Source of the DNA: Puniceicoccales bacterium
GTDB taxonomy: Bacteria > Verrucomicrobiota > Verrucomicrobiia > Opitutales > UBA953
Direction of reading: 5' to 3'
NCBI GenBank assembly: GCA_031285745.1
Contig: JAITVQ010000180.1
Coordinates: 1-40,235, forward strand
Length of the DNA: 40,235 bases
Under the pieces are notes generated by a model. It searched no databases and was not told the origin of the DNA. It was given only the letters and a program-made list of their open reading frames with translations. The translations under genes were made by a program, and so were the position numbers. The stretch's first letter is position 1. Each line of letters opens with the position of its first letter. This document shows, one piece after another, positions 1,195 to 17,447 of this stretch.

Positions 1195-2490
1195 TCAGCA
1201 AATCGTCCCGACCACCGTGCCGTCCGGGATAATCGCATTCTTTTTGATAATCAGCACCCCGTCGCGCACATACATGGCCTCGGTTTCCCATTTCTCCTCC
1301 ACGCCAAACGGAGAAAGACGCACATCGTTGCCAATGCGGGCGTTTTTGTCGATGATGGCGTTATGGATGATTGAGCCGAACCCTACGCCAAGGTTGGGAC
1401 GGCCAAGGCGTTTGTTCTCCTCAAGCTCTTCAAGTTCCTCGTAAAAGTCCGCGCCCATCATAACCACTTCGTGCATGCGCGAACCCTCGCGAACCACGGA
1501 ACGCACCCCGACCACGCAACGGCGCAACTCGGCATCCGTGACAATGCAACCCTCGGAGAGGACGACGTTCTTGACACAACCGCTGTTCAGCTTGGCAGGC
1601 GGCAAGAAGCGGGCATGGGTGTAAATGGGGTGCTCGCTGTCGAAGAAGTTGAAGGGAGGAACCGGGTCAGTCAGGGCCAGATTGGTTTCCCAGAAAGAAC
1701 CCACGGTCCCGATATCTTCCCAATAGCCGTCGAACACATAGGAGAATATCTTCTTGTCGCCGAGCAGTGCAGGAATGACCTCCTTGCCGAAATCCTTCAT
1801 GTTGTTTTTCAGCGCTTCCTTCAGGACTTTTCCGCTAAAAACATAGATACCCATGGAGGCCAGGCAGTATTGGGTGTCACTGGGATCCTTGATACTGGCG
1901 CGAATTTCACCCCCGACCACGAGAGAATCAACGACCTTGGGATCCGTCGGTTTCTCGACAAACTCAATGATACTGCTGTCAGGATTGACTCGCATAACTC
2001 CCAGCCCGGCCACTTGGTCGCGCGGCATGGCCTTGGCCGAAATGGTCAGGTCGGCGCCGGTCCTGCGGTGCTGGTCGACGAATTGGCTCAAGTCCATCCG
2101 GTAGAGTTGGTCACCGGAGAGAATGATGATCAGGGAGTCGTCTTCCAAATTAAAGTGGTGCATGTTCTGGCGAACCGCATCGGCAGTCCCCTGATACCAG
2201 GCATCCTTTTCCATCGTCTGCTCAGCAGCAAGGATGTCCACAAAACCCCGGCTGAATGGGTCAAATCCGTATGCCTGCTGGATATGCTTGTGCAGCGAGG
2301 CAGTGTTGAACTGGGTCAACACGTATATCTGGTTATAACCCGAATTAAGACAGTTGCTGATGGGGATATCTACCAGCCGGTAACTCCCCCCCAATGGCAC
2401 AGCAGGTTTGCAACGATCCACTGTTAAAGGGTGCAGGCGTGTACCACGTCCGCCTCCCATGATAACACATTTTACTTTGGGGTTACTCAT
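1195..2490 (-). CDS. glgC: Glucose-1-phosphate adenylyltransferase (ADP-glucose pyrophosphorylase)
   Basis: The 431-residue product makes ADP-glucose from ATP and glucose-1-phosphate, the committed step of bacterial glycogen synthesis in the cytoplasm. The N-terminus carries the nucleotidyltransferase signature GGGRGTRLHPLTVDRCKPAV (residues 12-31). It is followed by the family's YRLVDIPISNCLNSG block near residue 40, ILSGDQLYRMD near residue 125 (the catalytic Asp region), and FVEKP near residue 177, the sugar-phosphate-binding region. YWEDIGT near residue 256 is also typical. The C-terminal third forms the left-handed beta-helix, with repeats such as IIHNAIIDKNARIGNDVRLS, where allosteric effectors bind. 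The length is normal for the family (about 420-440). The start at 2490 agrees with the usual short lead before the glycine-rich loop. The lipoprotein gene follows after 13 bp. No other glg gene is in the window. Confidence 0.97.
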   Translation of the reverse strand: MSNPKVKCVIMGGGRGTRLHPLTVDRCKPAVPLGGSYRLVDIPISNCLNSGYNQIYVLTQFNTASLHKHIQQAYGFDPFSRGFVDILAAEQTMEKDAWYQGTADAVRQNMHHFNLEDDSLIIILSGDQLYRMDLSQFVDQHRRTGADLTISAKAMPRDQVAGLGVMRVNPDSSIIEFVEKPTDPKVVDSLVVGGEIRASIKDPSDTQYCLASMGIYVFSGKVLKEALKNNMKDFGKEVIPALLGDKKIFSYVFDGYWEDIGTVGSFWETNLALTDPVPPFNFFDSEHPIYTHARFLPPAKLNSGCVKNVVLSEGCIVTDAELRRCVVGVRSVVREGSRMHEVVMMGADFYEELEELEENKRLGRPNLGVGFGSIIHNAIIDKNARIGNDVRLSPFGVEEKWETEAMYVRDGVLIIKKNAIIPDGTVVGTIC

Positions 2491-2990
2491 GATTAAAGAT
2501 TGTTAGGGTAGATTGGCTTTATGCAGGGCTAAAGGAACAGCCCCACTAAAGACATAACAAAGACGGTAATTGCTTCGAGCAAGCTGAAAGTAATAATGTA
2601 GCTCGTGCAATGATATGAGGAGGCTCGGCAAAATTTCTTTCACCATTCGCCAGAAGAAAAAGCGAAGACCCCTTCATGGCAAATTTCCTTGCAACCCCTT
2701 TTCTTCACAGCGCCCAATTTTGGTATCCAATGTCAATCTCGCTTCATGCATAGCTATGTTGATTATAAAATGCCTCAAAACCGATGCGTATTACAGGTAG
2801 CCCTTTCTTTCCATCCTGTGATCCCAAGCTCACCTTTCCTGTCCTTACCTTTATATACTAGAAAATCCCTTGGATAAAACGTCCAAATAGCCGCTGGCCT
2901 CATTGGAGGATCTTCACACGTAGCCATTAACAAGCTGATATTTACCAGCATACAATTCATGTCTCAGCAAACACCGTCAAGCAAGCCTCT
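2491..2990. other. Intergenic stretch upstream of glgC, no gene seen
   Basis: No open frame in this 500-base stretch looks like a real protein. The glgC promoter must lie here on the minus strand, but I could not assign it. A small hairpin (GGGCT, eight-base loop, AGCCC) sits at 2526-2543, about 36 bases before the glgC start. It might lie in the leader of the mRNA, or mean nothing. The first copy of the palindrome array begins at 2991. Confidence 0.5.
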
Positions 2991-3296
2991 TTCCCGAGCT
3001 GGGAAACAATGAAGCAGATAGCGCGCTAACCTTCCCGTTCCGGGATGAGAGGAGACACATCTGCATGGTGAGTTTCCCGTTTCGGGAAAGTAACAATGCA
3101 CTTTGCACCGGAATTTTCCCGAAACGGGAAAACGGCTGTGCAGAAGTTTTCATACGTTCCCGGATCGGGAGGAAAACTATGCAACCGGGTTTGGCACTTT
3201 CCTGAATCGGGAAGATATCCGCGTCAATTGCATGGCGTTGTCCTGAACCGGGAATACGACCTCGCCAGTCGCATTGGTTGTTTTCCAGCAGAGGAA
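2991..3296. repeat. Phased array 1: about eight palindromes TTCCCGnnnCGGGAA every 41-42 bp
   Basis: Seven clear 15-bp inverted repeats and a weaker eighth lie in one intergenic region. Their centres are at 2998, 3039, 3081, 3123, 3164, 3206, 3247 and about 3289.5, so the spacing is always 41 or 42 bp, or four turns of B-DNA. Each copy is two five-base arms (TTCCC and GGGAA) around a five-base core that is usually G, three variable bases, then C. Copies 5 to 7 each have one arm base changed. The eighth keeps only TTCC and GGAA. The DNA between palindromes differs from copy to copy, but TGCA or a small palindrome recurs near several midpoints (TGCA-CTT-TGCA at 3098-3108, CAATTG at 3225-3230). 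Because 41-bp steps occur, no reading frame is kept across the array, so it is not coding. The array lies between divergent glgC and the DUF192 gene. Function is unknown. Confidence 0.9.
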
Positions 3297-3360
3297 GAGT
3301 ATTAGATTTCTTCGAAAAACACACCCCACCAGATTTTTGGATTCTGCCCGAGTTGACAAA

Positions 3361-3382
3361 CTGGGATCGTCGGCGATCCCAG
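3361..3382. other. Perfect 9-bp stem hairpin after array 1
   Basis: CTGGGATCG (3361-3369) and CGATCCCAG (3374-3382) form a perfect nine-base-pair stem with a TCGG loop. It lies 65 bp beyond the last array copy and 94 bp before the DUF192 start. It is not followed directly by a T run on either strand, so a classical Rho-independent terminator is not supported. It could be an RNA structure in the leader of the DUF192 gene or a protein-binding palindrome. Confidence 0.5.
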
Positions 3383-3476
3383 TGAAGAACTACCAGCTTT
3401 TTTCAACTTTCTCCTATTGTCCACAAGTCGTGCTTTTTCATTGAGCACACCTTGCTCCATCGGTAAGTCGGTTTCC

Positions 3477-4013
3477 ATGTTACAGGCATATTACCGGCTG
3501 TTTCTTTTTGCGGCAGTGTTCGTGGTTGGATGTAAACCGTCCTCCGAAAAAACCTATGCCGACGCCCATGCGCCTGTTGCCACGGTCACGTTCGAGCACC
3601 GTTTTCCGATCCAGTTTGGCGGAAAGGAAATTCACGTCCAGCTAGCGCTCACCGAATTGGAAAAGGCCCGGGGGCTCATGGGGCGCACGTCATTGCAGGA
3701 GAATGAAGGCATGTTCTTCGTTTTCCCATCCAACCAGGAACGCAGTTTCTGGATGCGCGATGTTCCCATCAACATTTCTCTGGGCTATCTTACCGAGGAC
3801 GGGAAACTGGATGAAATCAAGGCGCTCTATGCCAACGATCCGTCCTCGGTGCCGTCACGATCACGGGAGATACGCTATGTTTTGGAAATGCCGGAAGGCT
3901 GGTTTGAAAAGGCAGGCATCAAGCCCGGCGCACAGATAGATATTGAGGCTGTACGCGCCGGAATCACGGCCAGAGGATTCAAGCCAGGCAGTTTTTTACC
4001 GGAAAAGCGTTGA
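3477..4013 (+). CDS. DUF192 family lipoprotein
   Basis: I start this gene at ATG 3477 rather than at an upstream ATG at 3417. From 3477 the product opens with a lipoprotein signal peptide (MLQAYYRLFLFAAVFVVGC, with lipobox VVGC), whereas the longer form would bury it. The mature 178-residue protein is a single DUF192 domain. Visible hallmarks are LALTELEKARGLMGRT, then MFFVFPSNQERSFWMRDVPI, then ISLGYLTEDGKLDEIKALY, and VLEMPEGWFEKAGIKPGAQI near the end. The W-M-R-D/N-V/T motif and the E-x-P-x-G-W-F turn are family signatures. DUF192 proteins are small beta-barrel-like proteins of unknown biochemical function, often exported. The downstream antiporter is on the same strand 126 bp away, so co-transcription is possible but not shown. 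Confidence 0.9.
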   Translation: MLQAYYRLFLFAAVFVVGCKPSSEKTYADAHAPVATVTFEHRFPIQFGGKEIHVQLALTELEKARGLMGRTSLQENEGMFFVFPSNQERSFWMRDVPINISLGYLTEDGKLDEIKALYANDPSSVPSRSREIRYVLEMPEGWFEKAGIKPGAQIDIEAVRAGITARGFKPGSFLPEKR

Positions 4014-17062: not shown

Positions 17063-17391
17063 CTTGCGTTTTAGCAATAGTACTGCGTAGCACTGCGAGG
17101 TACTCTTGCGGAACCGCAAGAACGTTGCGCAGCGCTGCAAGGTACCTCCGTTAATCCACAAGGATACTGCGCAGGCCTGCGCAGTATGATTGCTAAAGCG
17201 CAAGAGAGGTGCGCAGCCCTACCAAGTACCCTTGCGCAAACACAAGACCATTGCGTAACGCTGCGCAATACCCTTGCGGAACAGCAAGACCGCTTGGCAG
17301 CGCTGCGCAGCCCTTTTGTGGAATGACAAGAGTATGTAGCAGCGCTACGCAGTACCTCCGCGCAAACGCAAGACCCCTTCGCAGCACTGCG
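17063..17391. repeat. Phased array 2: two alternating palindrome families, 16 sites at exact 21-bp spacing
   Basis: Family A has the form CTTGCGnnnnCGCAAG, with centres at 17070.5, 17112.5, 17154.5, 17196.5, 17238.5, 17280.5, 17322.5 and 17364.5. Family B has the form TGCGCAGCGCTGCGCA, with centres at 17091.5, 17133.5, 17175.5, 17217.5, 17259.5, 17301.5, 17343.5 and 17385.5. Each family repeats at 42 bp without a single indel, and B sits exactly 21 bp from A, so palindromes alternate every two helical turns. Sequence between copies varies a lot. The third B copy is a perfect 24-bp palindrome (17164-17187). Several changes keep pairing: the seventh A copy has TTGT...ACAA instead of TTGC...GCAA, and the seventh B copy has GTAG...CTAC. 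Because 42 is divisible by three, open frames with 14-residue repeats run through the array on both strands. The array lies in a convergent region between the cbb3 cluster and the MFS gene. Confidence 0.95.
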
Positions 17392-17447
17392 CAGAGTCGT
17401 CCCGACCCGATTTTTCCGATGCAGCCTATTGAAAATCGGCACAAAGC

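Follow-up and report, generated by a model that had tools for sequence, protein, structure and literature searches.

Here we describe an array of eight palindromic sites at positions 2991–3296 of a 40,235-bp stretch of DNA (hereafter the window) from a Puniceicoccales bacterium, which belongs to a widespread, apparently undescribed class of phased-dyad arrays whose home is upstream of genes of the DUF6261 family (PF19775). No description of this class was found in the literature searched. At slightly better than even confidence, we regard the window array as an orphan: a multivalent docking element, in phase with the DNA helix, that would be bound by a putative DUF6261-type protein and would, in its home position upstream of DUF6261 genes, serve in autoregulation.

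The window array consists of eight TTCCCGnnnCGGGAA sites (P1) that start at positions 2991, 3032, 3074, 3116, 3157, 3199, 3240 and 3282, with steps of 41, 42, 42, 41, 42, 41 and 42 bp (mean 41.57 bp); within the window, sites of this type form no other run. Perfect copies are located at 3074–3088 (TTCCCGTTTCGGGAA) and 3116–3130 (TTCCCGAAACGGGAA). The other sites are TTCCCGAGCTGGGAA (2991–3005), TTCCCGTTCCGGGAT (3032–3046), TTCCCGGATCGGGAG (3157–3171), TTCCTGAATCGGGAA (3199–3213), GTCCTGAACCGGGAA (3240–3254) and TTTCCAGCAGAGGAA (3282–3296), the last of which is a weak copy with four mismatches. The seven clear copies and one weak copy at 41- or 42-bp steps that an earlier note had read from this sequence are thus confirmed. 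A second dyad, P2 (TGCAnnnTGCA), lies at the half period and is clearest at 3097–3107 (TGCACTTTGCA); its relatives occur at further midpoints and also in paralogous arrays. Because of P2, a two-fold axis recurs on one face of the DNA every ~20.8 bp (two turns), and the self-complementarity profile has its maxima at centres ~20.8 bp apart. The TGCA words that the earlier note had seen near several midpoints are present, but they are an integral second dyad kept in paralogs and not the decayed site family it had proposed. The window array has the two alternating dyads, the period of 41–43 bp and the minimum of five units by which we propose to define the class, and it shares with ParABS centromeres the tandem palindromes at fixed helical spacing. 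It sits between the divergent 5' ends of genes for a GlgC-type nucleotidyl transferase (1195–2490, minus strand) and a DUF192 protein (3417–4013, plus strand). The window contains no DUF6261 gene upstream of which an array could lie; both of its arrays are orphans. An immunity protein gene of the NTF2 fold (Imm-NTF2-2) is located at 693–1181, with no obvious toxin gene adjoining it.

The second element of the same class (17063–17398) comprises eight units with a nearly constant 42-bp step and the dyads P1' (CTTGCGnaanCGCAAG) and P2' (TGCGCAGCGCTGCGCA). It is probably the other array to which the earlier note had referred in describing the same geometry with an unrelated palindrome, and the two arrays indeed belong to different word families. 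Pattern searches covering the genome (2.96 Mb, 299 contigs) recovered seven more copies of the second array, whose word family includes a DUF6261-linked array on contig C20, and co-linear paralogs of the window array on contigs C51, C106, C144 and C231; homology to the elements on C51, C106 and C231 spans positions 2960–3287 at 74–76% identity. A remnant of the TTCCCG family with two sites is present on contig C50 (L160, positions 1120–1175), upstream of a gene that by eye resembles plsY. When palindromes recurring every 25–70 bp were sought irrespective of word, many more word families emerged, nearly all at 41–42 bp, among them TTGCCG, TTGCTA, TTCCGC, TCCGTC, TTCGTT, TCCGTA, CGACAA and TCTGAC. 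The genome contains at least ten word families, or about 15 by our own count, as compared with 16 DUF6261 genes. The words CTTGCG, TTCCGC, TCCGTC and TCTGACA are common to dispersed and DUF6261-linked arrays; for the TTCCCG word, no cognate DUF6261 was identified among the genes of this genome. Arrays are located at the ends of contigs C51, C106, C121, C185, C193 and C280, where the repeats have probably interrupted the assembly, so that the draft understates their copy numbers. One array (L203) adjoins a tandem duplication of ~1 kb (1260–3513; 91% identity).

A scan of ~650 kb of sequence selected without regard to arrays yielded 27 palindrome clusters, 18 of them spaced at 40–44 bp, whereas three Markov shuffles produced one cluster altogether and none at 40–44 bp, by which a pure chance origin is rejected. 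A coding repeat is likewise rejected, as TTGCTA arrays contain stop codons in all six frames and show no 3-periodic substitutions, which together with the mixed 41- and 42-bp steps supports the earlier assignment as non-coding. Rfam covariance models identified no structured-RNA family in the arrays (the single match was a tRNA), and BLASTP searches with the immediate neighbours of the first arrays revealed no common flanking gene.

The DUF6261 gene family was reached via DNA matches near arrays of the same genome and was assigned to PF19775 with E values of 3e-28 to 2e-32. The 16 copies in this genome compare with none in seven of eight genus mates and none in five genomes of the same family; the remaining genus mate (G194) has a single DUF6261 gene with an array of its own. 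Of 289 genomes sampled over the phylum, only three pass the cut-off for the family, whereas 40 of 60 genomes in the taxonomic family of a Parabacteroides (G190) encode DUF6261, the maximum being at least 51 copies in one genome. A scan of the regions flanking 46 DUF6261 loci from several phyla, in which neither word nor spacing was preset, revealed arrays at 30 of them, in every case with a spacing of 41–44 bp, and the other spacings in the range covered (22–89 bp) yielded none. Arrays lie nearly always upstream of DUF6261, in 31 of 32 cases, and are 20–560 bp away from the start codon; the sole exception is a weak match at a locus with just 112 bp of upstream DNA. A word-free comb score placed the best period at 40.5–43.5 bp in 32 of 41 upstream regions (range of periods 30–55.5 bp). 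Because many of the genomes with the 46 loci had been picked via their TTCCC arrays, the test was redone on genomes not selected in this manner. Here, 15 of the 24 DUF6261 loci with enough DNA had an upstream array at 42–43 bp, one had a downstream array, and no upstream array was found at any other spacing; about 38% of the unselected genes were without a detectable array. As a background, 2.8% of 1.3-kb windows drawn at random from the same genome contained an array. A replicon of Prevotella nigrescens carries DUF6261 and an array in agreement with the upstream 42-bp pattern. An unverified 4.2-kb 'phage' record from human faeces (L366; accession number MT839608.1), possibly a bacterial fragment, likewise encodes DUF6261 downstream of a 42-bp array.

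Arrays were absent from the 285 kb sampled in three genus mates, although the array density of this genome predicts about eight for that length, and the array scan of same-family genomes yielded only noise independent of spacing. In public genomes, a scan with the TTCCC word alone detected arrays that comprise five or more sites, among others in Bacteroidales, Kordia, Cloacimonadota and a deltaproteobacterium. The arrays of Parabacteroides have the word pair TTCCCGnnnCGGGAA and TGCAAAATTGCA, which is identical to that of the window array. A deltaproteobacterial (G182) and a Cloacimonadota (G188) genome possess arrays and have no DUF6261 match. In the deltaproteobacterium Loclat_bin-17204, whose genome is without a DUF6261 match, four loci (L099, L100, L107, L109) carry TTCCCGCnGCGGGAA arrays with the mixed 41- and 42-bp steps of the window array, and this geometry is perhaps employed there by a different protein family. 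TTCCC pairs in Vibrio, Shewanella and similar genomes were rejected as arrays; they are promoter-like operators (L051, L062, L064, L108, L146 and similar) in which two TTCCC..GGGAA sites 41–42 bp apart surround a TTGACT box and precede a conserved small gene, i.e., a two-site version of the four-turn spacing. Pairs in Victivallaceae and Planctomycetes, which resemble other local inverted repeats, were also set aside.

While the period is constant, the word changes, and it has done so in concert throughout entire arrays. The TTGCCG arrays (C17, C159) and the TTGCTA arrays (C115, C22) are co-linear homologs in which the outer TTGC is 95% identical and the linkers are 71–77% identical, whereas the inner dinucleotide (CG to TA) is only 9–16% identical between the subfamilies and 94–97% identical within each of them, so that ~28 of 32 positions were switched together across eight units. 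In the family of the window array, identity is highest in the arms (85%), followed by P2 (73%) and the linkers (67%), and lowest at the loop centre (54%). These values support the proposal of the earlier note that arms and spacing are under selection, but not its statement that the linkers have almost fully diverged, since the paralogous linkers on other contigs are still 67% identical and the copies co-linear. As a neutral repeat would be expected to diverge evenly, the switch of the word in otherwise retained linkers speaks for selection on sequence-specific recognition; judged from these alignments, the concerted switch points to a shared recognition word as its target.

The 29 gene-linked arrays analysed, which come from several phyla, have a mean period of 41.71 ± 0.57 bp, or 4 × 10.43 bp per turn, and show dyad signals only at 0, ~21 and ~41 bp; the four-turn spacing suggested earlier for the window array is thus recovered with unrelated palindromes and in distant taxa. 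It is quite improbable that the arrays act as transcribed 5' leaders, whose chains of RNA hairpins would control the DUF6261 mRNA by attenuation or by binding a protein. Such leaders would agree with the short distance to the start codon and with strong RNA folding, in which a complete element forms a single long hairpin (z = −6.5 to −14.9), although single-strand folding of this strength is expected of any palindrome array. Mismatches in gene sense, however, are balanced between G.T and A.C (206 versus 218, p = 0.59), which gives no sign of selection on the RNA of one strand and favours double-stranded DNA over RNA hairpins. The helical repeat fits B-DNA and not A-form RNA, orphans occur in divergent and other contexts, and the Rfam search, too, speaks against an RNA element.

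The main rival, to which we assign a low but appreciable probability, is a non-autonomous mobile repeat of the ERIC, MITE or foldback type, i.e., an imperfect long hairpin that spreads without a role of its own and whose palindromes serve transposase binding or folding. The copies are dispersed and co-linear, with homology that ends just outside the array (element boundaries are approximate), and 28-bp terminal inverted repeats are clear in the L181/L209 subfamily only; dispersed copies with such repeats are a feature of MITE and foldback elements. The folding of whole elements into a single hairpin, the absence of arrays from the sampled genus mates and their frequent position at contig ends are also in line with mobility, which may explain the spread of copies in any case. 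Such a repeat does not account for arms that are far better kept than linkers, for a word switched in concert in every unit, for the near-constant placement upstream of DUF6261 in distant taxa or for one period shared by unrelated words in several phyla, and the RAYT transposases of this genome carry a different, classic REP. We consider it unlikely, though slightly less so than the RNA leader, that the arrays are centromere-like or chromosome-organizing sites which resemble sopC of the F plasmid and are recognized by some other protein, with DUF6261 as a co-controlled neighbour. The design is very close to that of parS-F, there are many dispersed copies, and the G182 and G188 arrays exist without DUF6261. 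Against this stand the home upstream of DUF6261 in many taxa and the similar numbers of words (about 15) and DUF6261 genes (16) in this genome; moreover, a copy number as high as that in the relatives of Parabacteroides would be more typical of a gene family than of a segregation site.

The proposed docking of DUF6261 proteins, with control of their own genes, is moderately supported. An alignment of 36 sequences and a predicted model (pLDDT 93.8) describe DUF6261 as an all-helical bundle of eight helices. The model had no match to the PDB or to viral folds at E ≤ 0.001, and searches returned no recognized DNA-binding motif and no sequence relatives with known function; a role as array binder is suggested by linkage, copy number and word diversity. 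The aligned proteins also terminate in a low-complexity tail whose last residues recur as xAG (such as GLAG/MAG) or as DVV/EVV, which is possibly a sorting or degradation signal. Under the docking model, each DUF6261 paralog, or a partner encoded with it, would bind the arrays that share the word of its own upstream array. The bound proteins would be dimers lined up along one face of the DNA; the paralog would control its own gene via the upstream array and would act at dispersed orphans with the same word, such as the array between glgC and the DUF192 gene.

The earlier reading of this locus is thus partly supported, and was incomplete with respect to the tie to DUF6261 and the number of word families. 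DUF6261, to which no function has so far been assigned and which the papers searched do not report in association with arrays, is tied to a precise DNA architecture, which provides a first testable function for this high-copy family. The arrays beside DUF6261 genes suggest a DNA–protein system with an ever-changing recognition word. Tentatively, and at somewhat less than even confidence, DUF6261 proteins may represent new sequence-specific, polymerizing DNA binders, each of the many paralogs having its own array and co-evolving rapidly with its word. If this is true, helix-phased dyads would constitute an address system for gene control, chromosome organization or genetic conflict. The constancy of the 41.7-bp period, whichever word is used, would amount to a natural experiment on the constraints that helical phase sets for nucleoprotein assembly, and the concerted switch would allow the evolution of DNA recognition specificity to be watched.

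The closest known design is parS-F (sopC) of the F plasmid, which consists of twelve 43-bp repeats with 16-bp inverted repeats (PMC6238139). There, too, tandem palindromes of ~16 bp bound by SopB/ParB are spaced at about four turns, but parS-F has one palindrome per repeat, a single word and a place in a plasmid partition locus with ParA/ParB, whereas the arrays described here alternate two dyads, use many words in one genome, occur as copies dispersed in the chromosome and have DUF6261 as a neighbour. No parA or parB gene was linked to the arrays; DUF6261 is the sole flanking gene found in common and had no ParB-like fold match. REP/BIME elements and their RAYT proteins likewise combine dispersed intergenic palindromes with a partner gene family whose members lie beside a repeat of their own. 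REPs carry a GTAG foot and are not known to be helically phased. An identity of the arrays with REP/RAYT was rejected, as the Y1/RAYT loci of this genome carry a different REP and lie apart from the arrays; two of its three Y1/RAYT-type genes (L162, L163) are flanked by classic REPs (GTAGCGCAGGCT..AGCCTGC). Unlike RAYT, DUF6261 has no transposase match by sequence or fold. ERIC, Correia (NEMIS) and YPAL elements are dispersed intergenic repeats of a few hundred base pairs or less that form long hairpins, some with terminal inverted repeats; to these properties the arrays add two-dyad phasing at 42 bp, word families, a concerted switch of the word and linkage to a protein-coding gene.
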